Of a stretch of DNA of 64,000 nt, positions 5,402 to 35,117 are shown piece after piece. Every line of letters starts with the position of its first letter. Positions within the stretch are counted from its first letter, which is position 1. A model generated the notes under the pieces. The model did not search any database. It was not told the origin of the DNA and was given only the letters and a program-made list of their open reading frames with translations. Made by a program: the position numbers and the translations under genes. This DNA comes from Pseudoalteromonas luteoviolacea (GTDB lineage: Bacteria > Pseudomonadota > Gammaproteobacteria > Enterobacterales > Alteromonadaceae): the NCBI RefSeq assembly GCF_000814765.1, contig NZ_JWIC01000004.1, forward strand, positions 248,001 through 312,000, written 5' to 3'.

Positions 5402-5415
5402 TTACTGAGATAAAA

Positions 5416-5964
5416 ATGATTCGCATACTTGATTTTCTATTTGCTTTTTTTGGTTTGCTCTTTGCCTTCCCGTTTTTGCTAATTTTATTTGTAGTTGGCT
5501 TGTTTGATACGGGGTCGCCTATCTTCACTCAAGAGCGCGTCGGCAGAAATAAAAAACCGTTTATATTGGTCAAGTTTAGGACTATGAAAGTGGATACTGC
5601 TTCTGTTGCTAGTCATTTAGCCAGTGCGTCTTCGATAACTGCTTTTGGCGGATTTTTGCGAAGAACTAAGTTGGATGAGTTGCCACAACTTTGGAATGTG
5701 CTTAAAGGTGAAATGAGCTTAGTAGGTCCACGCCCAGGTTTGTTCAACCAAACTGATTTAACGCACGCTAGAGAAGCAAAAAAGGTGTTTGATGTCAGAC
5801 CAGGGATCACCGGCTTATCTCAAGTGAATGAAATAGATATGTCCACACCTGAACTGTTAGCAAAAACAGATAGAGAAATGATAGACACCATGTCGTTATC
5901 AAATTATTTTAAGTATATTTTTATGACTGTCGCAGGTAAAGGCAGTGGAGATCGTGTAAAATAA
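5416..5964 (+). CDS. Undecaprenyl-phosphate sugar phosphotransferase (short bacterial sugar transferase)
   Basis: The 182-residue protein is the minimal single-domain form of the bacterial sugar transferase family (PF02397). One hydrophobic N-terminal segment (about residues 8-28) is followed by QERVGRNKKPFILVKFRTMK, the RRTKLDELPQLWNV helix, SLVGPRPG and VRPGITGLSQVN, all signature pieces. The long N-terminal membrane domain of WbaP/WcaJ is absent. It starts lipid-linked glycan assembly by moving a sugar-1-phosphate to undecaprenyl phosphate at the inner membrane. With the adjacent reductase and dehydratase it matches the arrangement known for QuiNAc-1-P transferases of the WreU type; that specificity is inference. 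Confidence 0.9.
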   Translation: MIRILDFLFAFFGLLFAFPFLLILFVVGLFDTGSPIFTQERVGRNKKPFILVKFRTMKVDTASVASHLASASSITAFGGFLRRTKLDELPQLWNVLKGEMSLVGPRPGLFNQTDLTHAREAKKVFDVRPGITGLSQVNEIDMSTPELLAKTDREMIDTMSLSNYFKYIFMTVAGKGSGDRVK

Positions 5965-6054
5965 ACATTTTACAGAGTTGCAAGGAAATGGTTTAACTAA
6001 GATGTTACTCAACGCTCAAAAAGGAATAGTGGCAATGAGAAAAAGCTAAATAGT

Positions 6055-6073
6055 GACTAACGAAAAGTTAGTC
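6055..6073 (+). terminator. Possible terminator hairpin after the sugar transferase gene
   Basis: GACTAAC (6055-6061) and GTTAGTC (6067-6073) form a 7-bp stem with a GAAAA loop, about 90 bases after the stop codon. The following run is poor in T (TTCC), so it may be a pause or processing site rather than a strong terminator. The dehydratase gene at 6167 has its own 200-base upstream gap. Confidence 0.4.
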
Positions 6074-6166
6074 TTCCATGACAGTTTTTAAATATTTGTG
6101 TATATTTATACGTTATAACCAGATTACTACATCGTGTATTGGATGTTGTTTAATTAAGGATTTACA

Positions 6167-8116
6167 GTGGATAGTTTATTCCGTTCTTTGCTAAGTACCT
6201 CACGGGCAAAAAAGCGCCTGTTCACTTTACTGATAGACTCTGTTTTTGTATTTAGTGCATTTTGGTTAGCTTTGGTTGTCAGGTTAGACAGTCTAGCACC
6301 GTTTACAGAGGCTAAAAATTGGCTGTTGCTTGCGTTATTGCTACCTGTGAGTTTATTCGTATTTATCAATTTGGGTCTATATAGGGCCGTTTTGCGATAT
6401 GTTGGAGCGCATGCTATTGGTGCCATAGTCATTGGTACTATTGTCAGTACAGTGGTGTTAGTCATGGCTGCCTTCTTTTTGCAAATTAACATTCCAAGAA
6501 CAATGCCTCTTATTTACGCTTGGTTAGTTATCTTATCTGTTGGTGGTGCTCGGATCATGGTACGTTCAATGGTTGGGCGTATCGGCTCGGTAAATAAAAT
6601 ACCAGTAGTGATTTATGGTGCAGGTGACGCAGGCAGGCAGCTTGCGACAGCATTGACTGCTGGTCCAGATTACTATGTATCAGCATTTATTGATGATGAT
6701 AAAAGCAAGCACCACTCTGTCATTCAAGGGATTTCAGTCTCCGGATTTGAGATGCTGTTCAATTTGATTGATAGAGGCAAGGTGAGAAAAATTTTATTGG
6801 CACTACCAAGTACATCTAGAGCTCGACGTAAAGAAGTATTGGCTAAACTGGAAAAGCTTCCTGTAGAAGTGCTGACAATTCCTGGCATGGCTGATGTTGT
6901 CGAGGGAAAAGCAAGCTTATCTGAAATTAAGGATGTAGAGGTTGAAGACCTGTTAGGTCGAGACCCTGTTGACCCTGAACCAAAGCTAATGGCATCGAAC
7001 ATTAAGGGTAAGTCAGTTATGGTTACCGGTGCTGGTGGATCTATCGGTTCAGAGCTGTGCAGACAAATTATTAATCAAAAGCCAGAAAAACTAATTTTAT
7101 TTGAAATATCAGAGTTTGCACTTTACTCAATAGAGAAAGAGCTTTCTGAAAGTATTTCGACAAAAGAACTAAATATTGAGTTGATACCTATTATGGGCTC
7201 AGTCCAAAGGGTCAATAGAATTGAAACATGCATGAAAGCATTCGGGGTACAAACCGTATACCATGCGGCGGCGTATAAGCATGTTCCACTTGTAGAGCAC
7301 AATGTAGTCGAAGGTATTCGCAACAACGTGTTTGGCACTTATTACACAGCAAAAGCAGCCATCAATGCTGGAGTGGAAACATTTGTTCTGGTCTCAACAG
7401 ATAAAGCTGTACGACCAACTAATGTTATGGGAGCCACCAAAAGAATGGCTGAACTTGTATTACAAGGTTTAGCACAGGATTATACTAGGCTCACACATAA
7501 AACACGTTTCTGTATGGTGAGGTTTGGTAATGTCTTGGGGTCTTCTGGCTCGGTTGTACCTTTGTTTAGAAGACAGATAAAAGAAGGTGGCCCAATTACA
7601 CTGACTCACTACGATATCACTCGGTTTTTTATGACGATTCCTGAAGCCGCTCAGTTGGTTATACAAGCTGGTGCCATGGGCAAAGGCGGAGATGTGTTTG
7701 TACTCGATATGGGTGAGTCCGTTAAGATAAGAGACTTAGCAATAAAGATGGTACATTTATCCGGGTTGGAAATCAAAAGCGAAGCCAATCCTCATGGTGA
7801 TATAGAGATAAAATGTACCGGGTTACGTCCAGGCGAAAAGTTGTATGAAGAGTTGTTAATTGGTGACAATGTTGAAGATACATCACATAAAAGGATAATG
7901 ACTGCGAATGAAGTTATGATGCCATTATCTGAACTCATTAACTTCCTAGATAGGCTAGATACAGCTTGTCACGACTTCGATCATGAAGTAATCAGACAGT
8001 TATTGCTCGATGCACCAACAGGCTTTAATCCAACAGATGGTATTTGTGACCTGGTGTGGAATGCGAAAAAAGAGCTACAACATGTTGATGAAAGAAAAGT
8101 CGTCAGCTTTAAGTAA
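6167..8116 (+). CDS. Membrane nucleoside-diphosphate sugar 4,6-dehydratase (WbpM/CapD/FlaA1 family)
   Basis: This 649-residue protein starts at GTG after an AAGGA site. About four N-terminal transmembrane helices (residues 15-120) are followed by a CoA-binding-like Rossmann domain (VVIYGAGDAGRQL) and a C-terminal SDR dehydratase domain with TGAGGSIGSE near residue 287, YHAAAYKHVPLVE, and STDKAVRPTNVMGATKR. The long membrane form is typical of WbpM, which makes UDP-4-keto-6-deoxy-GlcNAc for QuiNAc, FucNAc or bacillosamine. It supplies the substrate for the reductase at 4472-5401. The gene is separated from the operon by about 200 bases and may have its own promoter. Length and motifs look intact. 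Confidence 0.93.
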   Translation: MDSLFRSLLSTSRAKKRLFTLLIDSVFVFSAFWLALVVRLDSLAPFTEAKNWLLLALLLPVSLFVFINLGLYRAVLRYVGAHAIGAIVIGTIVSTVVLVMAAFFLQINIPRTMPLIYAWLVILSVGGARIMVRSMVGRIGSVNKIPVVIYGAGDAGRQLATALTAGPDYYVSAFIDDDKSKHHSVIQGISVSGFEMLFNLIDRGKVRKILLALPSTSRARRKEVLAKLEKLPVEVLTIPGMADVVEGKASLSEIKDVEVEDLLGRDPVDPEPKLMASNIKGKSVMVTGAGGSIGSELCRQIINQKPEKLILFEISEFALYSIEKELSESISTKELNIELIPIMGSVQRVNRIETCMKAFGVQTVYHAAAYKHVPLVEHNVVEGIRNNVFGTYYTAKAAINAGVETFVLVSTDKAVRPTNVMGATKRMAELVLQGLAQDYTRLTHKTRFCMVRFGNVLGSSGSVVPLFRRQIKEGGPITLTHYDITRFFMTIPEAAQLVIQAGAMGKGGDVFVLDMGESVKIRDLAIKMVHLSGLEIKSEANPHGDIEIKCTGLRPGEKLYEELLIGDNVEDTSHKRIMTANEVMMPLSELINFLDRLDTACHDFDHEVIRQLLLDAPTGFNPTDGICDLVWNAKKELQHVDERKVVSFK

Positions 8117-8129
8117 TCGTCAATTTTAG

Positions 8130-8157
8130 CCCTTCGACTCGGTAGCGTGTCGAAGGG
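8130..8157 (+). promoter_or_regulatory. Hairpin whose loop holds an ops-like (RfaH) sequence
   Basis: CCCTTCGAC (8130-8138) pairs perfectly with GTCGAAGGG (8149-8157). The loop and start of the right arm read TCGGTAGCGTG, which matches 10 of 12 bases of the E. coli ops element GGCGGTAGCGTG, and the core GGTAGCGTG is exact. ops is the RNA polymerase pause site at which RfaH is loaded in long surface-polysaccharide operons. It lies 14 bases after the dehydratase stop and about 140 bases before the yjbH-like start. It could equally be a plain terminator, although the following run is ATTTAACCCTTT rather than a T tract. Confidence 0.45.
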
Positions 8158-8298
8158 ATTTAACCCTTTCAAACACAAGGTTCAATAAGGGGCTGCCAAC
8201 TTACTTCTCCTGCTCCTTTAAGTACTTACATTGTCACTTATGCATGATATAGTACCTGCGAATTTGGAAATAATAAGCTTCGACAGTGGACTTCATGC

Positions 8299-10425
8299 AT
8301 GTATAAACTTCCTATTGTATTTTTGAGTAGTGGTATTTTATTTTCGCCAAATGTGTTGGCGGATAATCATATTGAAAAATCGATCTCTTTTGCCGGGTAT
8401 ACAGGCTTAATAAATACCCCTAATGCGGAAGTCCTCGATCGAGGTATGATAGACTTTTCTTATAACTCGCAGTTAGACTACTTTGGTGAGAGTTATGAGC
8501 AAGGGCATAATTTTACCTTCTCTGCTGGGATATGGGATAACCTTGAAGTAAACGGTATGATTGCCTCAAGTACGATGCATGATAATATGTTTATTATCCC
8601 TGAAAATGAACGTCTTCAGCTGAGGGATTTATCGTTTAATTTTAAATACCAAATTCCTTTTATTCCCAAAGACTGGTTTAACCTTGCGATTGGTTCGCGT
8701 GATGTAGGTGGGGCTGCGAATACTTATGGTACACATTATCTAGCGGCCTCGAAGCAGTGGGGAAGTTTTAGATTTTCTGCCGGAGTCGCGAGTAGCGACA
8801 GAATCACATCGCAAATGGATGGTGTGTTTGCTGGCGTTGAATGGCAAGCATTATCTTGGTTATCATTGCAGTCTGAGTTTGATGCAGATGCGGTTAATGC
8901 TGCAGTAAGGGTAACTGTACCTAAAGAATGGTTGTATGATTTAGGCACATTGAGCTTCATGGGCCGTGTGTATAGCAGCACTGATTATTCAGAAGACGAT
9001 GTATATTGGGGCGTTAATTTTTCAAAGCCGCTGTCAGGCTTATCTCGTTCTCATCATAAAGTCGAAGCAGCACCAGAACCTACTCAAAATATGAGTCGCT
9101 CAAAACGACCTGAACGGGATCCAGAGGTCGCGAGTTTCAAGACAGGCACAAACGAAACTGCGGCAGCGGCTTCGAGTCTAGTAGAAAACAAAACGGCTAC
9201 ATCCAGCAAAATTGAGCTCAACCAATTAGTAAGAGAACTAAGACACAAGCTCATAGCCGATGGGTTTGAGGGGGTACGAGTTGGTTTTAATGCATACCCT
9301 CACATTATCGTATCATTTGAAAACCCAGTGTTTAATCAAAATGACATTGATGCTTTTGGTCTTGTTGCTGGTCGAATTGCCGAGTTATCTGCGGCGCACA
9401 ATGCAAAATTTACGATTCAGTTGAGGAAGAAGGGCATACCTACCATGGCGATATCTGGTGATGCTCAAACTTACATTGCATTTCTCAATGGTCAAGGCTC
9501 ACCGAAGTTAAATGTGAAACTGGGACGTATGCACTCTGTGGGGGGCGTTGCTTGGGTTGGACTTGAAGATAGCAATACATATGCATTTAGGCCTAGAGTA
9601 ACGCTTTCACCAGCTCTGAGCTCTGCGTATGCGTCTGAGCTGGGTGTTTATGATTACTCTCTAGCTTTAAAAGCTGATATCGATGTTCCTCTTTGGAAAG
9701 GGGCTGGTGTCCATATATCCGCACAATCGGTAGTACATGAAACGGATGATTATAAAAGTGGTGGTGTATTCAGCAACTTTAGTAAGCAAGATGGCTTGGA
9801 GAGGGCGGTTGCATACCAAACATTTGAACTACCTTATGGATTTTATAACTTAACTCAGGTTGGTAAGTTCAAAGAGTTTCATGACTACACAGGGATCACC
9901 AATGAGACTGCGTGGATCAGTCCAGAGGGTCGCCATAAGCTAACCCATTATTATGGGTATTTTGAGTATGATGACTACAGTGCTGACAGGGATATTCAAA
10001 CGTTTGATTACCAATATAATTGGGTTGAGCAGGATATTAGTTTTAATGTGACCGTTGGCGAATTTTGGCGCAGAGACAAGGGCGTAAAAGTAGAGACTAA
10101 GTTTTGGTACGGCGATAGTTATTTATCTATTTATGCTCTGGATACCGATGTACAAGTAGCCGGGATCTCATTTAGTATTCCGTTATCTAAACGAAAGAGC
10201 ATGAACGTTTCTAAGTTTGGTCAGGTGAAAGGCGACCATGCATGGAGACACGGAGTAAGCACGCGCATCGGCGAGTCTTCGAATGCACTTGTTTATCAAA
10301 AAGGGTATGTACCAAAATCAAATATTAATTTAGATCGCCTTTACTTCAATCAAGGTCGCTTATCTGTAGATTATGTGTTTGAAAATATTGATAGGATGCG
10401 AGAAGCTTATAACACTTATAAGTAG
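8299..10425 (+). CDS. YjbH-domain outer-membrane protein of exopolysaccharide production
   Basis: The 708-residue product has a cleavable signal peptide (ends near residue 21, NVLADN). The mature part starts SFAGYTGLINTPNAEVLDRG, which is characteristic of YjbH and related exopolysaccharide proteins. The rest is rich in aromatic, strand-like segments expected of a beta-barrel, with a mid-protein linker (about residues 255-310, charged and Ala/Ser rich) between two barrel-like halves. E. coli yjbH belongs to yjbEFGH, which affects an extracellular polysaccharide; no yjbEFG homologues are seen here. The position right after a polysaccharide cluster suggests a role in export or secretion of that polymer. 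The exact function of the family is not established. Confidence 0.85.
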   Translation: MYKLPIVFLSSGILFSPNVLADNHIEKSISFAGYTGLINTPNAEVLDRGMIDFSYNSQLDYFGESYEQGHNFTFSAGIWDNLEVNGMIASSTMHDNMFIIPENERLQLRDLSFNFKYQIPFIPKDWFNLAIGSRDVGGAANTYGTHYLAASKQWGSFRFSAGVASSDRITSQMDGVFAGVEWQALSWLSLQSEFDADAVNAAVRVTVPKEWLYDLGTLSFMGRVYSSTDYSEDDVYWGVNFSKPLSGLSRSHHKVEAAPEPTQNMSRSKRPERDPEVASFKTGTNETAAAASSLVENKTATSSKIELNQLVRELRHKLIADGFEGVRVGFNAYPHIIVSFENPVFNQNDIDAFGLVAGRIAELSAAHNAKFTIQLRKKGIPTMAISGDAQTYIAFLNGQGSPKLNVKLGRMHSVGGVAWVGLEDSNTYAFRPRVTLSPALSSAYASELGVYDYSLALKADIDVPLWKGAGVHISAQSVVHETDDYKSGGVFSNFSKQDGLERAVAYQTFELPYGFYNLTQVGKFKEFHDYTGITNETAWISPEGRHKLTHYYGYFEYDDYSADRDIQTFDYQYNWVEQDISFNVTVGEFWRRDKGVKVETKFWYGDSYLSIYALDTDVQVAGISFSIPLSKRKSMNVSKFGQVKGDHAWRHGVSTRIGESSNALVYQKGYVPKSNINLDRLYFNQGRLSVDYVFENIDRMREAYNTYK

Positions 10426-11033
10426 CGAATGACTTTACATAATTGTTAGTAGAGATTGAAAAAGCAATAAGCTTGATGTGATTTGTCCGTCTGATCTCTA
10501 CCACCCCCATTTGGCGTTTTAAGCATATCTGTATGAAAATCTTAAAACGCTTACTACTCTACTTTTCCATCGCACGTCTCAAAGCAAGTTTATATATCCT
10601 GTTGTTGATAATGAAAAAGGTGTCCCTTTACGCAGTATGTCACTTATGAAGGCTGAAACCAAACTTCCCGTATTTGATGCTTAAAAGGTGCCAACATACC
10701 ATTGTGAGTGTGGGTAATCCGGTTGACCAGAAATAATGTTTTCTTAGTTAGATGGTATTCAATGATGGAAGTCAATGTAAGTAACGAAGAGGATCAGCAA
10801 GCGCTACTTAGCTAGGCAATGTGACATAGAGGGTGGAATAGGAGTGGCGCAGGTCTAAAGGTCGATATCCTTAATATATTGATATCCATATATTGGCAGT
10901 CATTGTCCTGAAAGGCTCAGACATCATGGTAACGCTACTCATTGGAAAAAAGGCACTCAGTGGGGGAGGTGTCAATTTATTAATAAAAAAGCCGCGATTG
11001 ATCGCGGCTTTAATTTCAGTTTACTTTTATTAA
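10426..11033. other. 608-base region without a convincing gene
   Basis: Only short open frames are present. The region holds a 10-bp inverted repeat, GCGTTTTAAG (10514-10523) and CTTAAAACGC (10541-10550), with a 17-base spacer, which may end yjbH transcription. It also holds a terminator at 10985-11012 serving the minus-strand gene. A 38-codon frame (10533-10649, beginning MKILKRLLLYFSIARL) lacks a clear ribosome site. The middle looks like decayed sequence, but I cannot identify the parent. Confidence 0.5.
10985..11012 (-). terminator. Rho-independent terminator of the surface lipoprotein gene
   Basis: GCCGCGAT (10991-10998) and ATCGCGGC (11001-11008) form a GC-rich 8-bp stem with a two-base gap. 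A-rich sequence on the left gives a T run for minus-strand transcripts, and TTTAATTT on the right gives weaker bidirectional action. It lies about 25 bases after the stop of the gene at 11034. Confidence 0.85.
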
Positions 11034-12671
11034 TTAGTTACCGCCGGTAACGCCAGTAACTTCATCAAATTGACAGTTGCTACGTCCAACATTGAACGAT
11101 ACAGCTTCACCTGCTGCAGCCGTGAATGTAGGAACAGTTAGTGATGCATCACCAACATCAACACCGACTGGAATTACTGATACTTCGTATGTCGCACCAG
11201 AAACAAGGCCTGTTAGTGCGTAAGTACCGTTTGTCTCAGCAGCGATTAGAGGTGCTTTACCTGCCTGGTTATAACGAACTAATGCACCAGTGAACGCTAG
11301 TTGCGTGTCAGGCTGGTCTGTGTTGCTACATGAGTATGTTAGGCTGAAGTCTTGATTAACGTATGTAACAGGTGCATCTAACGCGATTGTGATATCAGCT
11401 GCTGTTGCGCTGCTATTACAAAGTTGAACATTTGACGCAGTGCCCCAAACGTTGCCGTTGGCATCTGATACTTCAACGTTAACTGTTGCTGATGAAGTAA
11501 TGCCTGCTGCGCCCGCTGTACCTTGAGCGTATAGTACACCAGATGCAGAGTTAACAATCTTAGTCTTGTCTAGAGCGCTAGAAACGATCTTCAAGTTTAG
11601 ACCAGAAGCTGGCACTGCATCACCAGTGAATGCGTAAGATACTTCTTCAGAACAGCCGGTTACTGTTTCAACAGGAACGAAGCTTGAGAAGTGAGTTGTT
11701 TCAAAGCTTGCTGGGAAAACTGTACCAGACTTAGCAGCAACCACTGCTTGTGAGTCTAGTTTGCTCCAAGTCGCTTTTGTTTCGTCGTATGAGTAGACGT
11801 CAAATGCATCATTTTGAGCTAGGTTTGAACCGTCAGCTTTTGTATATGTTTCTGGGAAGTTAGTGGTTAAAGTAACAGCTTCAGAAAGCGATTTAACCGC
11901 TGTATCACCAGCAGAAATATTTACTGTAATGATACCAGCAGGTACTAATACATTTGTCGTGTTGCCAGCGTTTAGACCCGCTGGAATAATGCTTGCAGCG
12001 CTTGCTTTACCAGCTTCAGCACTTAAATCAGCTGTTGCTACTTCTACTGATACAGCGCCTGAAATAGCGTTGCCGTCAGCATCTTGTAGAGTAACAGTCG
12101 TTGGGATATCCAGCTTCGCGCCACCATTTGTTGAGTTTGCTTCAACAGATAGAGCTTCAGCTAGTTTACCGTCTGTAGTTGCTAAGTCTGCTTGAGATGC
12201 AACCGCTAGGCTTGCTTTGCTTACTAGGTTTACTGCAACATTAACAGCATTGTCGTCGCCGCTTAGGTCAACAATCGCTGAGCCTTCAAGGTAATCAGCT
12301 GCTGAAACAGCTAAAGTGATAGATGAAACACCATCTTTTGTCTTGAACGCAAATGCGCCATCAGTAGACGTTTGTGATGAAATATCCGCACCGTCTAAAT
12401 CAGTTACGTTTGTTGAAGCTGCACCGCTTTCAAAGAACGTGATAGTTGCGTTATCAACTACATCACCTGATGCACTGTCAGTAACAGTCACAGAAACGTA
12501 AGAAGAAAGTGCTGCTGGAGTATCTGGAGTAGGAACTTTAGTGGTTTCTTCGCCTGGATCTGGCGGAGTGACTACAACGTCGTTGTCATTATCGCTGAAA
12601 CAACCTGTTAAACCAACTGTTAGACCCAATGCAAGGGCAAGTTTAGTTAGCTTCAAATTTTTATTTCCCAT
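11034..12671 (-). CDS. Large Ala/Thr/Ser-rich surface lipoprotein with Ig-like or carboxypeptidase-regulatory repeats
   Basis: From the ATG at 12671, which follows an AAGGT ribosome site, the 545-residue product begins MGNKNLKLTKLALALG and has a lipobox LTVGLTGC with Cys near residue 24, so it is predicted to be a lipoprotein. An upstream in-frame ATG at 12698 is less likely. The mature protein opens with an acidic Pro-rich linker, then VSVTVTDSASGDVVDNATITF, a pattern of carboxypeptidase-regulatory-like beta domains. Later segments (VNVEVSDANGNVWGTA, YALTGLVSGATYEVSVIPVG) repeat that style. Four Cys near the C-terminal half may form disulfides. It has its own terminator and seems monocistronic. 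Function unknown; surface adhesion or matrix binding is a guess. Confidence 0.8.
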   Translation of the reverse strand: MGNKNLKLTKLALALGLTVGLTGCFSDNDNDVVVTPPDPGEETTKVPTPDTPAALSSYVSVTVTDSASGDVVDNATITFFESGAASTNVTDLDGADISSQTSTDGAFAFKTKDGVSSITLAVSAADYLEGSAIVDLSGDDNAVNVAVNLVSKASLAVASQADLATTDGKLAEALSVEANSTNGGAKLDIPTTVTLQDADGNAISGAVSVEVATADLSAEAGKASAASIIPAGLNAGNTTNVLVPAGIITVNISAGDTAVKSLSEAVTLTTNFPETYTKADGSNLAQNDAFDVYSYDETKATWSKLDSQAVVAAKSGTVFPASFETTHFSSFVPVETVTGCSEEVSYAFTGDAVPASGLNLKIVSSALDKTKIVNSASGVLYAQGTAGAAGITSSATVNVEVSDANGNVWGTASNVQLCNSSATAADITIALDAPVTYVNQDFSLTYSCSNTDQPDTQLAFTGALVRYNQAGKAPLIAAETNGTYALTGLVSGATYEVSVIPVGVDVGDASLTVPTFTAAAGEAVSFNVGRSNCQFDEVTGVTGGN

Positions 12672-12905
12672 GATTTTTACCTTTTCCTTTAAATACAAGT
12701 AAACTGAGAGTTATAACCAATTGGTGCAGATGTAAGAAAGCCTTGCCCTGCATGCAAATTAGTGAATTAGAGAATAAGCGTACATTAAATGTTCGTCAAG
12801 TGAACTGACCTAACTTTATCCAAAAATTCACGTTTAATAATAACACACTGATCTAAAATTGGGATCTGATCTGACCAATGTTAATAAAATAATAATATTC
12901 AGAAA

Positions 12906-13562
12906 TTACAGCTGTGAAAATCCATCTACGAATTCGTGTAATGCTGCCAGATCCACAGGCTTTAAACCTGAGTTTGTTCTCTCTATTAAGCCCTTTTGCA
13001 CTAATTCGCTTACCACGCGTCTATAAGCGCGTTCAGTGGTTGCAAATCGTTCTGCTTCAGCACTGACTGTTGAATAAGCTCGGAGCAATGTAGAGTGTTT
13101 ATCCTCTGCGCGTAATAAACAGTCCTTGGCAATATTGTAGCTCAACGGAAGTAACAATTTGTCTAGGTTTATTTTTTGGTTCTCGGTAAACTTTGCTGCA
13201 ATAGTTTGCGCAGTGTATAAACTTAAGTCTGGCTGTTCTAATAGCAATTGACGCCAGTGCTTAAGTTCAATTAAATTGTACTGTACGTCACTTAAACAGG
13301 TGACCGTATAGATACAAGGTTGATTATTGAGTGCTTCTATTTCACCGATTAAGGTATTGTTACAGTCCAATTGCCCAAGTAATAGTCGCCTACCATTACC
13401 CACATCATAGCTGAATGACACAGTACCACTTCTGACCAAGATCAATTTGCTGAGCGGTTCATCCTGATGGATCAGTATTTCTTTTTTTCTGTGCTGAAAA
13501 CTATTTCCTGCAAAACTGAGTAATTGCTCGACCAAGGTGGTTGAAAAGTGATATTGGAACAT
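12906..13562 (-). CDS. Crp/Fnr-family regulator, YeiL-like
   Basis: The 218-residue protein has an N-terminal cyclic-nucleotide-binding-like beta barrel (about residues 20-120, with KEILIHQDEPLSKLILVRSGTVSF) and a C-terminal winged helix (about 150-205, with ATTERAYRRVVSELVQKGLIER). The barrel lacks the cAMP-binding phosphate cassette I would expect in CRP, and no N-terminal Cys cluster of FNR is present. The layout resembles YeiL, a stationary-phase member of the family. A perfect 12-bp palindrome sits just before its start and could be an autoregulatory operator. The target genes are unknown; the divergent ygjV-like gene and the downstream lipoprotein are candidates. Confidence 0.85.
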   Translation of the reverse strand: MFQYHFSTTLVEQLLSFAGNSFQHRKKEILIHQDEPLSKLILVRSGTVSFSYDVGNGRRLLLGQLDCNNTLIGEIEALNNQPCIYTVTCLSDVQYNLIELKHWRQLLLEQPDLSLYTAQTIAAKFTENQKINLDKLLLPLSYNIAKDCLLRAEDKHSTLLRAYSTVSAEAERFATTERAYRRVVSELVQKGLIERTNSGLKPVDLAALHEFVDGFSQL

Positions 13563-13875
13563 CTGGTTAGCTCTCGGACAATTGTCCTATTTATTAAATT
13601 AGTATAAAGATAGCATGAACTGAGTTATTCAAAGCTATACACGTTGTTTCTTTTAAGACTTTATTCTCGCTTATCCTTGACTAAGTGAATTAATTACTCC
13701 AAGAGTTGAGTGTGAACTAAACTATTCATATCTCTTGTAATTAATGGAGCAAGTGTGTAGAAAATCGCCCTACATCTGCGCATAATAGGCTCAAATGTAG
13801 TCTGTTATTATCCCTAAAAATGACTTGAATATCGTTTTAGCCGCCAATGCTAACCTAACTACGAGGAGAGAACAA
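13563..13875. other. Divergent intergenic region of the YeiL-like and YgjV-like genes
   Basis: About 310 bases with no gene-like frame. It holds the palindrome at 13576-13587 and, on the minus strand, a TATACT hexamer upstream of it that could be the -10 of the regulator gene. A GAGGAG site at 13863-13868 serves the plus-strand gene. I see nothing else I can name. Confidence 0.5.
13576..13587. promoter_or_regulatory. Perfect palindrome GGACAATTGTCC, possible operator
   Basis: This 12-base perfect palindrome lies 13 bases before the start codon of the Crp/Fnr-type regulator. Its size and symmetry suit a dimeric winged-helix protein, so autoregulation is a fair inference. It does not match the FNR (TTGAT-N4-ATCAA) or CRP consensus. 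Confidence 0.4.
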
Positions 13876-14094
13876 ATGACTTGGGAATATTTAGGCTATC
13901 TAGCTTCCGTCTTTTTGGTTGTTTCTCTTATGATGACTAATGTCTCTAAGTTGCGCTGGTTCAATTTAGCAGGCTGTATTTGCTTTACCGTTTACGGTGT
14001 AATGATAAGTGCTTGGCCAGTGGTATTGACCAATGGTTTGCTCGCATTGGTCAACATCTATCATTTGTTTAAGTTAGCCAAATCTGACAATTAG
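13876..14094 (+). CDS. Small inner-membrane protein, YgjV-like
   Basis: The chosen ATG at 13876 follows a strong GAGGAG site 7 bases upstream and gives a 72-residue protein; the longer frame back to 13825 adds a non-hydrophobic leader without such a site. Three hydrophobic segments (about residues 5-21, 26-45, 47-66) include KLRWFNLAGCICFTVYG, which resembles the YgjV inner-membrane family. Function in that family is unknown. It is transcribed divergently from the YeiL-like regulator and its stop overlaps the end of the convergent amidohydrolase gene by four bases. Confidence 0.75.
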   Translation: MTWEYLGYLASVFLVVSLMMTNVSKLRWFNLAGCICFTVYGVMISAWPVVLTNGLLALVNIYHLFKLAKSDN

Positions 14095-15734
14095 TCGCGT
14101 TTGTATTTAAGTTTGCCAGCAATCCACGTTTGCTCTACTTTTATATCATGTAGTTGAGTATTTTCGACCGTAAAATAGTCACGGTCGATTAAAATAAAAT
14201 CGGCCCATTTTCCGTGTTCTAGACTACCTAATTTAAATTCTTGAAATGCAGCATATGCGGCGTCTAATGTGAAAGCTCTCAATGCTTGTTGTTTTGTCAG
14301 GCGCTCTGAGTGTCTCCAACCATCTTTTGGTTGTTGCGTTTTATCCATCCTAGTGACAGCGGCATATAAACCATCAAACGGGTTTGCGAGTTCAACAGGA
14401 AAGTCAGAGCCGGCAGCCACCTTGATATTGTGCTTTAAAAATGTCTGCCATGCATAAGCACCTGTTAATTGAGAGTTTCTCAAACGCTTCTCTGCCATAT
14501 GCATATCTGACGTGGCATGGACTGGTTGCATTGACGGAATAATCTTTAACTGTTTGAAGCGAGGAATATCCTGCATATCGACAATTTGTGCATGTTCAAT
14601 TCTGTTTCTCAGTAGTTGTCCACCTGTATCTTTAAAAACGCTCTGGTAGCTGTCCAAAACGATTCGATTTGCACGGTCACCAATGGCGTGTGTGTGTGCG
14701 CTGAATCCATGTTTTACACTCATGCGAATCAAAGACTCGAGCACCGGTTGTTGCTCAAGCATCAAACCTCGATGACCAGGTCTATCTTTGTAGTCTGTTA
14801 AGAGTGCCGCTCCTCGACTACCGAGCGCGCCATCGGCATAAATTTTAACGCTGCGGATGGTTAAATAATCGGTTTGCTCTTTGACGATACCGGCTTTGAG
14901 CATCTCCTCTAGGTTTGGATCTGAGGCGCTTAACATGGCATAAATTCTTAAAGGCATGGACTGTTGCTGTGCTCTGCGCTTATATAATTGCCATGTGTCG
15001 GCATCAATACCCGCATCATGCACAGATGTAATTCCTAAACCGAGTAAATGTTTAGCTGCTTTATCCAGTGCGCCATTTAATTGTATAGGCGTGCGTTTGG
15101 GTACTTTACGTAATATCAGTTGCTCGGCTTTATCAATAAAGACACCGCTTGGTTGTCTATTGGCTAAACGCAGGATTTCTCCGCCGTCTGGAGATATGGT
15201 CTGTCTAGTCACCTGTGCTAATTTCATTGCTTTCGAATTCACCCAGATAGCATGCCCATCAACTCGGGTTAAAACAACTGGCCTATCAGACACATACTTG
15301 TCTAGATCATGTGCTGTTGGAAATTGATTGGGAGACCACTTAGTCTGGTCCCAGCCTCTCCCGATAAGCCAACCAGACGGATTTTCTTTGGCATAGCTTT
15401 TTAGCGATTCGCCTACCTCTGCTACTGACTTTGCGTGGCGAAGGTCAAGGCGGGACAAATTTTCACCAAGGCCAATGACATGTCCATGGGCATCGATTAG
15501 GCCTGGCAACATGGTTAATCCTTTACCATCGACTGTGGTAGACTGAGGGTATTGCTTGATGGTCTCATTGTCTCCGATTTTGACTACTTTGCCATCCTTA
15601 ATGACGAGAGTAGAAAACTGTTCAATCCCCCCTGCGCGGGTTGGGGTGTATCCATTCACATTGTGGACTACTGTGAACTGAGCATGGGCGCAGTGGCTAA
15701 AGAGACATAAGCAAAGTAGCAAGCGTTTTTTCAC
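14091..15734 (-). CDS. Secreted amidohydrolase, YtcJ-like
   Basis: The 547-residue protein begins with a signal peptide (MKKRLLLCLCLFSHCAHAQF, cleavage near residue 18), so it is likely periplasmic. It has the amidohydrolase superfamily layout: an N-terminal beta domain, the metal-binding GLIDAHGH near residue 77, HDAGIDADTW, SAHTHAIGDRAN, the RIEHAQ strand and a late AAGSDFPVE that carries the catalytic Asp. These are the marks of YtcJ-type enzymes, which hydrolyse N-substituted or formamide-like compounds. The natural substrate is unknown. It has no cotranscribed partner; the next minus-strand gene is over 120 bases upstream. Confidence 0.88.
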   Translation of the reverse strand: MKKRLLLCLCLFSHCAHAQFTVVHNVNGYTPTRAGGIEQFSTLVIKDGKVVKIGDNETIKQYPQSTTVDGKGLTMLPGLIDAHGHVIGLGENLSRLDLRHAKSVAEVGESLKSYAKENPSGWLIGRGWDQTKWSPNQFPTAHDLDKYVSDRPVVLTRVDGHAIWVNSKAMKLAQVTRQTISPDGGEILRLANRQPSGVFIDKAEQLILRKVPKRTPIQLNGALDKAAKHLLGLGITSVHDAGIDADTWQLYKRRAQQQSMPLRIYAMLSASDPNLEEMLKAGIVKEQTDYLTIRSVKIYADGALGSRGAALLTDYKDRPGHRGLMLEQQPVLESLIRMSVKHGFSAHTHAIGDRANRIVLDSYQSVFKDTGGQLLRNRIEHAQIVDMQDIPRFKQLKIIPSMQPVHATSDMHMAEKRLRNSQLTGAYAWQTFLKHNIKVAAGSDFPVELANPFDGLYAAVTRMDKTQQPKDGWRHSERLTKQQALRAFTLDAAYAAFQEFKLGSLEHGKWADFILIDRDYFTVENTQLHDIKVEQTWIAGKLKYKRD

Positions 15735-15857
15735 GGAGATGCCTTTATTTTTATATTTATGATATTTACAAATTAATTATTTTTAATTTGATATCAAGTT
15801 TTAACGTTAATTTACAGGCTTACGTTCTGCGTAGCTACAATGATGTCAAAAATAAAG

Positions 15858-16067
15858 TTAATCTTCTTTATCGGCTTTAATGGCGATTTTGATGGCAATA
15901 ATAACAATGGCAAACATTAAAAAAGGCAGTGCAGCAAGGCTGTACTCTGCCCAGTGGTTATTTTGATAGCTGGGCTGCAGAATAAAATGTCCCCCAATGC
16001 ATAGCGCAATGCTGATCAACAACAAGGGAAGCATTATTAATTCCTTTTTGTAATTAGACTTTTTCAT
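15858..16067 (-). CDS. Small two-helix membrane protein
   Basis: ATG at 16067 follows a near-perfect GGAGGTGACA site and gives 69 residues, MKKSNYKKELIMLPLLL onward, with two transmembrane segments (about 11-30 and 42-62) and a charged KADKED tail. The longer frame to 16118 is not needed. I do not recognise the family. It stands alone between the YtcJ-like gene and proB. Confidence 0.7.
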   Translation of the reverse strand: MKKSNYKKELIMLPLLLISIALCIGGHFILQPSYQNNHWAEYSLAALPFLMFAIVIIAIKIAIKADKED

Positions 16068-16156
16068 TGTCACCTCCGAATACCAGTATACATCGCATGC
16101 TTCTGTCGAGCTTGACATTGATCATAGTTCATCACAGGGGAGTTGAGGCAATCAAT

Positions 16157-16237
16157 ATGAATACGATGGTAGCGCCCTTGAAATATATTCTATTGATCTG
16201 TTTGTTTAGTATTCAATTTTCATTGCGCGTGGTATAA
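16157..16237 (+). CDS. Possible 26-residue hydrophobic micropeptide
   Basis: An ATG at 16157 follows GAGG at a spacing of about 8 bases and encodes MNTMVAPLKYILLICLFSIQ and six more residues, a single hydrophobic segment. It lies in the gap before proB. It may be chance, since short hydrophobic frames are common in AT-rich spacers. Confidence 0.2.
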   Translation: MNTMVAPLKYILLICLFSIQFSLRVV

Positions 16238-16272
16238 AAAATGTCTGTAAAAGATCTTTGGATGTATGTGTG

Positions 16273-17391
16273 ATGGCTAACAAAAAAGTCATTGTTATTA
16301 AATTAGGCACTAGTGTACTGACGGCTGGCGGCATATTACTCAATAAACCAAGGCTGGTTGAAATTGCAAGTCAGTGTGTTGAATTGAGAGCCGCAGGATG
16401 GCAGGTCATTCTCGTTTCAAGCGGCGCCGTGGCAGCAGGTCGAGCGGCACTGGATCAAGATGTTGGAAATTCGATTGCGGAAAAGCAAATGTTAGCTGCT
16501 ATTGGACAGGGTCAGCTCATTCATTTATGGCAAAGCTTGTTCTCAATTTTCGATGTATCCGTCGCGCAATTATTGTTGACGCGTGCTGATGTCGAGGACA
16601 GAGCGCGCTATTTGAACGCGAGAGATACGCTCACTCAGCTGCTGCGTCACGATGTGGTCCCTATTATTAATGAGAATGATGCGGTGGCAACAAGTGAAAT
16701 TAAGGTGGGAGATAACGATAATCTATCTGCAATGGTCGCAATTTTAGCAAATGCAGACAGGCTTCTTTTATTGACTGATCAGTCAGGTTTGTTCACTGCA
16801 GACCCACGACAAAACCCCGATGCACGTTTAATAGAAACGGTTGACGAAATCGATGAGCAGATCATGGCGATCGCAGGTGGCGCTGGATCGTCACTGGGCA
16901 CAGGGGGAATGGCGACGAAATTACAAGCTGCTCAAATTGCTCAACGGGCAGGCATTGAAACAGTCATTGCCAAAGGCAGTGAACCAAGTGTTATTGTCAA
17001 CATTCATTCAGGTTTGGCTAAAAGTACCAAGTTCATTCGCTTTGATGCCCCCCTTGATGGACGTAAAAAGTGGCTACTTTCAGGGCCGAGGTGCAGTGGC
17101 GCGCTGTTTTGTGATGAAGGGGCAATTAGTGCCGTGTGCTCGCAAGGGGCGAGCTTATTAGCGAAGGGCATTACAGACTTAAGCGGTCAATTTCAACGCG
17201 GTGATCTAATAGAGCTTAAGAGCAGTCAAGGTAGGGTCATTGCCAAAGGGTTAGTGGCATTTGATAGTCAAGAGTTGCAAAAAATTAAGGGGCTGCATAG
17301 TACCGAGATAAGTGAAGCATTAGGTTACCAAGGCGCCAATGTGGTTATTCACAGAGATGATCTTGTATTACTAGAACACGTTGCAACCTAA
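16273..17391 (+). CDS. proB: Glutamate 5-kinase
   Basis: From ATG 16273 the 372-residue product has the amino-acid-kinase fold with VIVIKLGTSVLTAGG, VSSGAVAAGRAAL, PIINENDAVATSEI and DNDNLSAMVA, followed by a C-terminal PUA domain (about residues 275-365). It phosphorylates glutamate, the first and feedback-inhibited step of proline synthesis. A TTG at 16258 is also in frame but would add only five residues. proA is usually adjacent in related bacteria and is not in this window; a GGDEF protein follows about 24 bases downstream instead. Length is normal for the family. Confidence 0.95.
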   Translation: MANKKVIVIKLGTSVLTAGGILLNKPRLVEIASQCVELRAAGWQVILVSSGAVAAGRAALDQDVGNSIAEKQMLAAIGQGQLIHLWQSLFSIFDVSVAQLLLTRADVEDRARYLNARDTLTQLLRHDVVPIINENDAVATSEIKVGDNDNLSAMVAILANADRLLLLTDQSGLFTADPRQNPDARLIETVDEIDEQIMAIAGGAGSSLGTGGMATKLQAAQIAQRAGIETVIAKGSEPSVIVNIHSGLAKSTKFIRFDAPLDGRKKWLLSGPRCSGALFCDEGAISAVCSQGASLLAKGITDLSGQFQRGDLIELKSSQGRVIAKGLVAFDSQELQKIKGLHSTEISEALGYQGANVVIHRDDLVLLEHVAT

Positions 17392-30657: not shown

Positions 30658-30681
30658 TTGGCGCAAAAGGAGTTATACATT

Positions 30682-32058
30682 ATGGCATTATGGGGTGGGC
30701 GCTTTTCTACAGGCCCTGATCAAGCGTTTAAGCAGTTTAATGATTCATTACCTTTTGACTACCAGTTGGTTGAGCAAGATATCGTCGGTTCTATCGCATG
30801 GGCAGGTGCACTTGAGCAAGTTGCTGTTTTGACTCGTGAGGAGTGCAAGCAATTGGTTGATGCGTTGCACTCGCTGCTTGATGAGTCTCAAGCGAATGGT
30901 GTTGAGATAGCAAGCAGTGGCTATGAAGATATTCACTCGTATGTTGAAGCTAAACTGATAGAAAAAGTAGGCGATTTAGGTAAAAAATTGCATACAGGTC
31001 GTAGCCGAAATGATCAAGTTGCTACGGACTTTCGGCTATGGTCTCGCCAGACTGCACAGCAGATTGTGGTTGCACTAAAGTCTTTGCAAGGTGCGTTGGT
31101 GCAGCTAGCTGAACGGGAGTTTGAGACCATTTTACCTGGCTATACACATTTACAGCGCGCGCAGCCTGTGCTCTTCAGTCATTGGTGTATGGCGTATGTT
31201 GAGATGCTGACTCGCGATGTTTCACGTTTGAACGGTGCAATTGAACGCCTTAATGAATGTCCGCTTGGTTCAGGTGCATTAGCAGGGACTGCGTACCCAG
31301 TTGATAGAGAACGTTTGGCAGAGCAGCTCGGTTTTGACCGTGCTACGCGAAATAGCTTAGATGCCGTATCTGATAGAGATTTTGTGGTAGAGCTACTGAG
31401 TTGTGCTTCTATTTCAATGATGCATTTGTCGCGTCTTGCTGAAGATATGATCTTTTATAACAGTGGTGAGTCAGGTTTTATTGAATTGGCAGATAACGTG
31501 ACGTCGGGCTCATCCTTAATGCCGCAGAAGAAAAATCCAGATGCACTGGAGTTAATTCGCGGAAAAACGGGGCGTGTGTTTGGCGCATTTAGTGCCATGA
31601 TGATGACACTCAAAGCACTTCCTTTGGCCTATAACAAAGATATGCAAGAAGATAAAGAAGGTCTGTTTGATGCCCTACCAACGTGGATCGCATGTATTCA
31701 TATGGCGGAGTCTTGTATTAAAGGGGTGAAAGTCAATGCAGAAAGGACCTTAAAGGCTGCGCAAGGCGGACACGCTAATGCAACTGAACTTGCAGATTAC
31801 CTTGTCGCTAAAGGTGTTCCCTTTAGAGAAGGGCATCACATTGTTGGACAATTGGTGCAAATCGCCATTGAGCAGGGCAAGAATTTAGAAGAACTGGCGT
31901 TGGATGAATTGAAACTGGTATGTCCAAAAATTGACAGTGATGTCTATCCGCGGTTAGAAATTGCCGCCTGTATTGCCGCAAGGCAAGCATTGGGTGGCAC
32001 ATCTTTGCCGCAAGTGCGTGAAGCAATCAATACATTTAAGCAATCTATCGCAGATTAA
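30682..32058 (+). CDS. argH: Argininosuccinate lyase
   Basis: ATG 30682 follows AAAAGGAG and gives 458 residues, [14 protein letters not shown], the standard start. Motifs include [29 protein letters not shown] and the signature [12 protein letters not shown] near residue 276. It releases arginine and fumarate. In several related Vibrio and Alteromonas lineages argH carries a C-terminal ArgA acetyltransferase domain; here the protein ends right after the lyase domain, so N-acetylglutamate synthase must be encoded elsewhere. Confidence 0.96.
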
Positions 32059-32074
32059 AATACATAAGTTACTC

Positions 32075-32111
32075 GAGTGAAGTTATTACACAGCTTCACT
32101 CTGTTATTTTT
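32075..32111 (+). terminator. Terminator of the argCBFGH operon
   Basis: GAGTGAAG (32075-32082) and CTTCACTC (32094-32101) form a perfect 8-bp stem with an 11-base loop, followed by TGTTATTTTT. It lies 16 bases after the argH stop. Confidence 0.8.
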
Positions 32112-32517
32112 AATTAACATTTTATTTTCTTTATTGTGTCATATAATCTGCATTTGTTCCCATAACTTCCCTCTTTCTCAACGATTTACACGCGCTAACA
32201 CTGAAAGAACTAATCTATAGTTTTTTAAGTTTATGACATTAAAGTTCTTTTTGTTTTTTCGCTTCCTAAGTAGATCATCGCATTTGTTGTTAACTGATAT
32301 GAAATTTAGTAATTTTTAATTGTTAAAATAACAATTTTTAGCTCGTTTACTGATAAATCAATAGGTTAATTATTGTTCTTTTAAAGGTTTGGTAAATTTT
32401 TTGTTTTATTTTTGTTTTGATTTGGCCTGCTTGTTGCTTAAATATGACTTCTAGAGTTTTAGCTGCTGAATATTGTTGTGTCAGCTGAAATGAAAAAATT
32501 CATAAAGAGGGAAAGCA
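32112..32517. other. Long AT-rich leader region before the double-glycine peptide gene
   Basis: About 400 bases with no gene-like frame, strongly enriched in T runs. Near its end TTTAGCTG (about 32458-32465) and CAGCTGAA (about 32482-32489) can form an 8-bp stem with one G-U pair, just before the AGAGGG ribosome site. The length suggests a regulated promoter or a leader RNA, but I see no known operator or riboswitch. Confidence 0.5.
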
Positions 32518-32685
32518 ATGTTTAACTTTAATATCAAACACTTTGATTCATCTAAAAATGCTGGAAAAACAAAGACAAAATCTGGTAATGTGATTACATC
32601 TCTCGAAATTTTAAAGGTGGTATCTGGTGGGCGTGGTAGCGGCAATTATCCTAAAAAGCGCTTTTCATATACTCAACGTAGATAA
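32518..32685 (+). CDS. Small peptide with a microcin-type double-glycine leader motif
   Basis: ATG 32518 follows AAAGAGGG at good spacing and encodes 55 residues. The N-terminal 38 residues end SLEILKVVSGG. Relative to a cut after GG, Ser at -11, Leu at -7, Val at -4, Ser at -3 and Gly-Gly at -2/-1 match the leaders of class II microcins such as colicin V (which end in SVSGG) cut by C39-peptidase ABC transporters. The remaining 17 residues, RGSGNYPKKRFSYTQRR, are strongly basic with two aromatic Tyr and one Phe and no Cys. The stop overlaps the start of the next membrane-protein gene (TAATG). A secreted peptide with its immunity or handling partner is the leading idea; no transporter lies nearby. 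Confidence 0.65.
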   Translation: MFNFNIKHFDSSKNAGKTKTKSGNVITSLEILKVVSGGRGSGNYPKKRFSYTQRR

Positions 32686-33200
32686 TGGCATTTGATTACT
32701 TCGGATTAAGTATTGGGGCCCTTGTGATTTGGGGCTTTTTTATGGCCAGTTTACTGCATGTGTCTTTTTACATACTGGCCGTGAATAAAAATGTGCAGGC
32801 ATTAGCATGTGCAACTATTTTGGCTATCTCTTATAGTCTGAGTGACTTGACCATGCCAGTAAATTTTGAGGCCATAGATTTTGGGGTGCTGCTGGCTTAT
32901 GATCTACTCACGTTGTTTATACTCATCATAGCAAGGCACTTTCTATTTCAACAGGCTGCTCGCCAACCTTGCTATACATATTGCTGCATAGGCCTGACCA
33001 TAAATGCGCTGTTATTCCTAGCAATGTTTACTGATTCGTATTTATTAGGCAATTATGAACCCTGGGCTTTATGGTACTTTTATTCTTCAACCGTTAATAT
33101 TGTCGATTTAATCATGGTTAGCGCTGTGATACTGAATCGTGATTTTATAGGCTTGCAATTGTTGTCACGAAAACTTTTGAATACAAAGGCGACTGCTTAG
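32685..33200 (+). CDS. Five-helix membrane protein paired with the double-glycine peptide
   Basis: The 171-residue protein has about five transmembrane helices (roughly residues 6-31, 38-56, 63-88, 97-116, 123-150) and a short basic tail. I do not recognise the family. Its ATG overlaps the stop of the upstream 55-residue peptide by one base and it has no ribosome site of its own that I can see, so its translation should depend on the peptide gene. Such pairing is common for bacteriocins and their membrane immunity proteins, and also for peptide-responsive membrane proteins; both are inference. It is followed by a hairpin. Confidence 0.7.
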   Translation: MAFDYFGLSIGALVIWGFFMASLLHVSFYILAVNKNVQALACATILAISYSLSDLTMPVNFEAIDFGVLLAYDLLTLFILIIARHFLFQQAARQPCYTYCCIGLTINALLFLAMFTDSYLLGNYEPWALWYFYSSTVNIVDLIMVSAVILNRDFIGLQLLSRKLLNTKATA

Positions 33201-33203
33201 TTT

Positions 33204-33231
33204 GCTGCTATCACGTGCGTGTCATAGCAGC
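33204..33231. terminator. Hairpin between the membrane-protein gene and the convergent wzi-like gene
   Basis: GCTGCTAT (33204-33211) and ATAGCAGC (33224-33231) form a perfect 8-bp stem three bases after the stop. It lies between convergent genes and has no clear T tract. Confidence 0.55.
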
Positions 33232-33249
33232 CACTGGCCAGCTCATTAA

Positions 33250-35117
<1,868 letters not shown>

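Follow-up and report, generated by a model that had tools for sequence, protein, structure and literature searches.

The window analysed here, a stretch of 64,000 nucleotides of the Pseudoalteromonas luteoviolacea genome (contig NZ_JWIC01000004.1), carries a small ORF, translated as MFNFNIKHFDSSKNAGKTKTKSGNVITSLEILKVVSGGRGSGNYPKKRFSYTQRR, and directly behind it the ORF of a membrane protein (Table 1). Both exist as the initial annotation had described them, including the TAATG in which the stop codon of the former and the ATG of the latter share one base. This overlap recurs in some close relatives but is not a family-wide trait, since elsewhere the two genes are mostly separated by a gap of 2 to 99 nt. 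The small ORF is preceded by a ribosome-binding-like GAGGGA, and purine-rich sites of this kind also stand upstream of its homologues. The AT-rich stretch previously reported upstream of the pair is equally present (GC of 0.285 and 0.245 in 32101-32500 vs. 0.415-0.465 in 31501-32100). The flanking genes are those which we take, by resemblance, to be argH on the left and coaD on the right, the latter together with a Wzi-like gene, also on the opposite strand. The pair lies downstream of a terminator-like hairpin behind argH and may be transcribed on its own; such hairpins occur at chance level (one found vs. a mean of 0.9 in shuffled sequences), and the + strand showed no sigma-70-like promoter.

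Table 1. Features of the argH locus in the window, and positions of the third small protein in related sets elsewhere
Feature	Coordinates	Strand	Basis
argH-like gene, left flank	30658..32058	+	assumed from resemblance; part of a longer frame may follow the usual start
Terminator-like hairpin between argH and the pair	32075..32101	+	terminator-like search
Ribosome-binding-like site GAGGGA	32507..32512	+	read from the sequence; 5 nt upstream of the small-ORF ATG
Precursor peptide gene, 55 aa and stop	32518..32685	+	ORF translation; homologous peptide in 90 of 91 loci
Leader part, residues 1-38, ending in ..LKVVSGG	32518..32631	+	conserved precursor part among close relatives
Core part, residues 39-55, RGSGNYPKKRFSYTQRR, predicted free peptide	32632..32682	+	variable part; Arg start inferred from tandem-core precursors and the type A G-[GAS] site
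Head membrane protein, 171 aa, five TM helices and a C-terminal helix	32685..33200	+	ORF, AlphaFold2, co-variation with the core
coaD-like gene, right flank	34602..35102	-	assumed from resemblance
Third small protein of sets outside the argH locus	L269:7304-7618, L264:2213-2539, L266:2305-2595, L273:8346-8777		

The peptide-membrane pair was found behind argH in 91 of the 99 sampled Pseudoalteromonas genomes, the sample comprising one genome per species and hence giving no view within species; related genomes are not independent. An intact peptide gene stands upstream of the first membrane gene, hereafter the head, at all of these loci except one, in which the peptide is decayed by an in-frame stop (G011). 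The recurrence of homologous pairs at 91 loci is, as judged by sequence comparison, more than chance would give. Genes of the argH family lie 5' of the pair in all 55 loci compared and those of the coaD family 3' in 51 of them; argH is also present in the 36 further loci that complete the set. Behind argH, the membrane genes form arrays of one to nine. The gene families around the 55 loci, whose names (arg genes, Wzi-like, coaD-like, TetR-like, thiI-like) we presume from resemblance, include no signal-transducing gene (kinase or response regulator) at the argH locus, and the head is the only constant neighbour of the precursor. The five inspected genomes without the pair have the Wzi-like gene directly after argH.

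Profile searches for the peptide assigned 35 of the 99 genomes to type A, the type of the window (called at E<1e-10), and 55 to type B; G033 is intermediate, and the remaining eight have neither type. Five of these eight were also searched with the membrane protein and inspected at the site, while G099, G101 and G117 were covered by the peptide search only. Two weak peptide matches (G049:C1 and G034:C28, E 0.03-0.04) showed no precursor-like ORF on inspection. A wider search of 108 genomes of the genus gave type B in 60. Relatives of the membrane protein were detected by the first search in 55 of 60 genomes of the genus and in none of the 39 genomes of other genera, and the 23 named loci of a species-level collection all belong to Pseudoalteromonas, P. 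luteoviolacea strains being the nearest. An order-wide search of 394 genomes returned the window family in four, each of them a Pseudoalteromonas; it is incomplete, since a genome of another genus (G511) has a homologue. Open-licence PMC literature, searched by title and the start of the abstract, contained no earlier description of this locus; most subscription papers lie outside that literature, and an earlier description is possible.

The AlphaFold2 model of the head (38 sequences; mean pLDDT 85, pTM 0.79) consists of five long helices and a C-terminal helix, for which the loop charges suggest an N-out/C-in topology. Near-invariant residues of the head family are Y50, D73, Y99, N107, D117, W127, W130, D141 and D153. 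Four polar ones (Y50, D73, N107 and D141) lie inside helices and are kept both in heads and in the downstream copies of the arrays, and their conservation fits an active function of the head better than mere blocking. Conservation between head alleles is lowest in loop 3 and the second half of TM3, at the C-terminus, and in sections of loops 2 and 4. Heads of the same cassette type show a pN/pS of 0.18 (20 pairs) and their downstream counterparts 0.23 (79 pairs), which indicates that both gene classes are maintained.

No credible or above-cut-off match for either the peptide or the membrane protein was obtained from Pfam, NCBIfam, PHROG, PADLOC or the PDB sequence families. Foldseek with the head model gave no match at E<=0.001, and the best VIA-align match (Z 9.0, rmsd 3.5, 124 residues aligned) falls within the chance range for helical bundles. 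Type B leaders match FlgM only weakly (12/31, best E 0.019), and two weak PADLOC matches (E 0.001-0.009) both concern the third small protein of the sets outside the argH locus.

The variation at the locus is sharply delimited. Among the 29 close locus pairs (argH >0.90, drawn from the 54 first-set loci with a peptide), median nucleotide identity is 0.95 for argG, 0.94 for argH, 0.89 for the region before the peptide and 0.93 for the leader; it is 0.48 for the core, 0.61 for the first and 0.60 for the last membrane gene (the same gene in single-gene arrays), and 0.95 for coaD. In 60-base windows, the pairs L070/L072, L083/L101 and L070/L215 stay mostly at 0.9-1.0 through the leader, run at about 0.4-0.75 through the core and the first membrane gene, and reach 0.78-1.0 from the second membrane gene onward. 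Proteins of L070 and L072 agree with this pattern, the heads being 52% identical and the downstream counterparts 77-95%; the drop in L104/L060 extends past the last membrane gene up to the conserved flank. These edges, between leader and core and between head and next gene, imply that core and head diverge or are exchanged as one unit. By the same comparison, one edge of the hypervariable island is inside the small ORF.

Core and head also vary together. Among 166 close pairs (ArgG/ArgH >=0.96; pair counts not independent), 137 have different cores (<0.8) and 135 of these also have different heads (<0.85), while the 29 pairs with the same core have heads at >=0.85 in 17 cases and lower in 12. 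The core-head correlation is r=0.58-0.64 at three thresholds, and none of 2000 within-group core shuffles reaches it; the leader-head control gives r=0.13-0.17, reached in 0-2 of 2000 within-group shuffles, so some residual relatedness remains. With leader and species distance held constant, partial Mantel correlations are r=0.54 for type A (0/1000) and r=0.22 for type B (1/1000). These core and head statistics cover 87 of the 91 loci, leaving out the decayed L089, L222 (by the >140-aa filter), and L094 and L237 (not split by the pattern). In type B close pairs (17), pN/pS is 0.26 for the leader and 0.62 for the core; the corresponding values in type A close pairs (8) are 0.34 and 0.26.

The L093 locus (G001) illustrates the exchange. 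Its leader is that of its own clade (identity 1.00 with L083), while its head has 0.72 and 0.65 identity to L212 and L074 of another clade, with which its core agrees, and 0.32-0.36 to its own clade's L083, L078, L079 and L202. By these identities, L093 is a case of the other clade's core and head behind its own clade's leader. Such co-variation bears out the expectation that the membrane protein is functionally tied to the peptide. A side observation concerns L231 (G102), where a second, possibly decaying precursor (..VSAARGSGIYPKPIGG) lies behind the head gene (oriented positions 4403-4588). Its core is that found in a sister clade, which would fit a remnant of an earlier cassette.

We considered that downstream array genes could be former heads, i.e. 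displaced immunity genes. This was ruled out by best matches across loci, which for 91 of 91 heads are heads and for 150 of 150 downstream copies are downstream copies (membrane copies <140 aa left out). No downstream-head pair exceeds 43% identity; on the tree, many of whose branches are long, the head/downstream label has to change twice.

The mature product is best approached through precursors with repeated cores. The 174-aa precursor of G100 (L222) contains nine copies of RGGGIIKT with variable spacers between them; compared pairwise, the units show 147 nucleotide differences, every one of them synonymous and in a third position, whereas in the spacers 32% of the residues differ and third positions account for 88 of 141 differences. 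Three copies of RGGGVIIT occur in G003 (L090) and two of RQGGVIIT in G017 (L068), and these tandem units together point to a constrained unit of about eight residues with Arg first. A G-[GAS] site is present in all 35 type A peptides and is followed by Arg in 33 of them (L100 and L237 differ), so the product of the window is predicted to start at Arg39. The initial annotation had proposed a 17-residue product right after the Gly-Gly, and the tandem-core homologues, which independently indicate an Arg-first unit, favour this prediction. Core ends in other species suggest core lengths from 8 to about 20 residues. Yeast alpha-factor likewise comes from a multi-copy precursor of identical short peptides and spacers; the precursors described here share the repeated cores, but they are bacterial, unrelated in sequence and adjoined by the gene of a membrane partner.

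The tandem cores also bear on the idea that the small ORF is a cytoplasmic regulatory leader of the membrane gene, of the arrest-peptide type. SecM-type leaders do stand directly before a membrane gene, and the small ORF has both this position and an AT-rich 5' region. However, its C-terminal part is the most variable one, nine units differing only synonymously would be useless in an arrest peptide, and an Rfam search of 31800-33400 gave no match at E<=1, so that we regard this explanation as very improbable.

The leader of the window peptide invites comparison with exported peptides. The published rule requires GG, GA or GS with hydrophobic residues at -4, -7 and -12 (PMC10885120); the window leader has Val at -4, Leu at -7 and Thr at -12. 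The view of it as a class II microcin-like leader is borne out for the window, with its Gly-Gly end, and for the G-[GAS] site of type A, but it does not extend to the family, since many type B peptides lack the GG motif. The motif is not kept across homologues, contrary to what the initial annotation would have required.

A C39 domain (PF03412) was matched in 73 of the 99 genomes of the genus and in none of the other 26. All 35 type A genomes have a canonical one (E<1e-25, our own division), while the 55 type B genomes comprise 15 with a canonical match, 14 with a weak match (E 2e-16 to 2e-8, which also pass the Pfam cut-off) and 26 without any. Cleavage by C39 exporters consequently fails as a rule for the family, though it is a plausible route for the window peptide. 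The complete overlap of type A with canonical C39 does not prove processing: on the ArgG/ArgH tree a single change divides type A from type B, an event without replicates, and all eight peptide-less genomes carry a canonical C39 as well.

The only C39 match in the window's genome is within a lanthipeptide-like cluster that has its own ..QIGGG precursors. This class-I-lanthipeptide-like cluster (L052, C8:64000-83999, about 3291-16663) follows a glmU-like gene and includes LanB-, LanC-, HlyD- and C39-ABC-like genes, the HlyD assignment too being by resemblance; its small precursors share the leader ..LTNEATLMPRQTQQIGGG.. and have Cys/Ser/Thr-rich tails. Pseudoalteromonas class I lanthipeptides are among the subjects of the references cited in PMC10885120. 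The window peptide was rejected as a lanthipeptide precursor: it is unlike the precursors of this cluster, its core has no Cys, and no modification genes are found at the argH locus.

Since 26 of the 55 type B genomes would need some other release or export factor, and the head is the only constant neighbour, the head itself might be a dedicated maturation or export factor that co-varies through recognition of the core, for which AgrB with AgrD provides a precedent. We consider this improbable. The head family alignment contains no conserved catalytic Cys/His pair, the expected target of such a factor would be the conserved leader and not the variable core, and relatives with Sec-like signals retain the partner.

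Related sets occur outside the argH locus. The leader profile A7, searched over 395 genomes of the family, yielded additional precursors along with several matches to ordinary or ambiguous proteins. In G511, a precursor (..ESDTVNISQEALDANKNEQSILRHAGGGVYVPPTSPPPPKET) is followed by a membrane protein homologous to that of the window (hhalign 98.8%, E 4e-17) and a 104-aa protein; a second locus in G003 combines a GGGG[GD]GV[IT]PPQ core in three copies with a third protein and a membrane protein that shows no recognisable likeness. Both adjoin an integrase-like gene. Six membrane proteins from such sets form the profile A8, which is remotely alike to the window family (hhalign 72%, E 3e-5) and matches in 55 of 295 genomes and 18 of the 52 genera of the family, including eight places in the window's own genome.

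Twenty A8-type loci, hand-picked from the profile matches and not random, have a core-bearing precursor directly upstream in 12 cases and none recognised in eight, seven of these in Pseudoalteromonas. The claim that the membrane protein does not occur without the peptide thus holds at the argH locus, where the single exception is the decayed peptide, but not for the related membrane proteins elsewhere. Eight of the 12 precursors contain two or more core copies, e.g., eight of NGPGVRP, four of DTGGNGVEPP or three of GNGAGIEPP. A Sec-like signal peptide, recognised by eye, precedes GNGGG[KNT]EPP in three remote precursors. The third small protein that follows the membrane gene in these sets has one membrane stretch, a charged helix and RAHxL or HxLxM motifs, and no credible family match was found for it. 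Leader types differ across the sets (GG, SDTVxLS, Sec-like), while the short Gly-rich core and the membrane partner are constant; of the hints at a peptide that works outside the cytoplasm, on its partner or close to it, this is the strongest.

Some of these sets are associated with mobile DNA. Precursor-membrane sets at L269, L273 and L284 adjoin genes that resemble integrases, which suggests that they are cargo of mobile islands. Among 72,556 plasmid records, 59 match P0006, one of the membrane-set proteins, mostly at 27% identity, and three were examined. The IncC plasmid pVPS129 (NZ_KY014464.1, 1159-2217; L327), which is conjugative, carries the full three-gene set beside an SMR transporter gene and sul1: an SDTVTLS-type precursor with the core GGGWGNEPPK, a five-helix-like membrane protein and a RAHRL-type third protein. 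The membrane gene is unannotated in the plasmid record. The small ORF of pC-SY-46 stops before the core, and pKpnC6 has only part of the membrane ORF. Neither the window membrane protein in plasmids and phages nor P0003 in plasmids gave a useful match, and none of ten pattern matches of the former in viral contigs was confirmed.

Several further copies were observed. G764:C1 carries a three-gene set with two NTGIEPPK copies twice, apparently identically and 24 kb apart (L282 and L283, at about 1.474 and 1.498 Mb). Two arrays of three A8-type genes each in the window's own genome are almost the same, have no recognised peptide gene and lie 1.15 Mb apart on one contig (L307 and L308, C7:46500-55500 and C7:1199000-1207500). 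A 42-aa ORF of the same genome, MKLSKKELKQLSVDDAKVIAGGTSVSKAPPQQMARMMLLQQG (L310:2631-2759; C4, about 53.1 kb), has a bacteriocin-type double-glycine leader and stands 68 bases upstream of an A8-type membrane gene.

Taken together, the locus quite probably encodes an exported peptide and an allele-matched membrane partner. Comparison of the loci places a conserved leader and a short variable core directly upstream of the five-helix protein, and shows that core and head are replaced or diverge as a unit. The core, RGSGNYPKKRFSYTQRR in the window, would be released as a free peptide, as the tandem-core precursors suggest. Export from the cytoplasm would follow, in the window's clade perhaps by way of the C39 exporter encoded in the lanthipeptide-like cluster and in other lineages by other routes, and the peptide would then act on the head belonging to its own allele.

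For the purpose of this action, we tentatively put first, at somewhat short of even chances, a polymorphic peptide signal and a membrane receptor for recognition of the own type. A secreted signal read by the membrane protein had been only the second idea in the initial annotation; here it is the leading one. This reading draws on the hypervariable island, the core-head co-variation and the exchange in L093, on the short polar tandem products and the near-universal fixed place of the locus, like a core trait of the genus, and on the Sec-like signals of the three remote relatives. Short polar products of this kind are unlike typical pore-forming toxins. Against it count the lack of a signal-transducing gene at the argH locus, the residual leader-head correlation, and the pN/pS of the type A core, which is not fast within one cassette.

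The ComQXPA locus of Bacillus offers a likeness, in that a precursor and a neighbouring membrane-associated partner are together highly polymorphic among close relatives in conserved surroundings, and the trees of the locus and of housekeeping genes disagree (PMC4408185). Unlike the system described there, the argH locus has no isoprenyl transferase, histidine kinase or response regulator, and thus no adjacent two-component pair; it is Gram-negative, with tandem-core precursors and a five-helix partner of no known family.

A close rival of the signal-receptor reading, possible though we would not expect it, is an antibacterial peptide with its immunity protein, in which the core would be a narrow toxin against close relatives and the head would protect the producer; the pair would function as a microcin and its immunity protein do, but would not be a class II microcin. 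A hypervariable peptide beside a small inner-membrane protein recalls microcin pairs (PMC9746304), the window's clade has a GG leader and C39, and the partner arrays without a recognised peptide, together with the copies by integrase-like genes and on the IncC plasmid, suit immunity as well. On the other hand, the downstream genes are not displaced immunity genes, some eight polar residues are small for an unmodified toxin, and the locus is nearly universal in the genus.

Class II microcins, as presented in PMC9746304, have an immunity protein, a C39 exporter (PCAT), an MFP and TolC, and the known immunity proteins are membrane-bound and of 51-216 aa. The leader of the GG/GA type in the window's clade (..VVSGG|R, unlike much of the wider family), the variable core and the adjacent small membrane protein, with 171 aa of fitting size, are similar to these, while the pair differs in having no adjacent exporter, no C39 at all in the 26 type B genomes, and cores of 8-20 residues, some in tandem. 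The effector-immunity arrays of the Vibrio cholerae T6SS also have a variable pair at the head of an array of related genes, and lineage exchange; their orphan immunity genes resemble immunity genes of other strains, whereas the downstream copies here never best-match heads (PMC5361080).

We think it rather likely that the pair belongs to an undescribed superfamily of short exported Gly-rich peptides with five-helix partners, which would serve peptide-based self-recognition in Gram-negative bacteria and whose alleles are exchanged together. As compared here, its members outside the argH locus would usually have Pro-Pro cores and a third small membrane/coiled-coil protein, with up to nine tandem copies overall. 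The superfamily would take in the precursors from seven genera within a single marine family, the related membrane proteins from 18 genera and the complete set of an IncC plasmid.

Gram-positive bacteria are the classical setting for peptide signals and polymorphic pherotype loci, which are rare in Gram-negative ones. A genus-wide locus of this kind would provide a tractable pair for studying how a peptide of about 8 to 20 residues and a membrane protein that changes with it keep their specificity while diverging, and the probable mature peptide can be read from the tandem-core precursors without any chemistry. Should the partner prove to be an immunity protein, these peptides would be unusually small bacteriocins. 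In addition, the full set on a conjugative plasmid shows that the system can travel.
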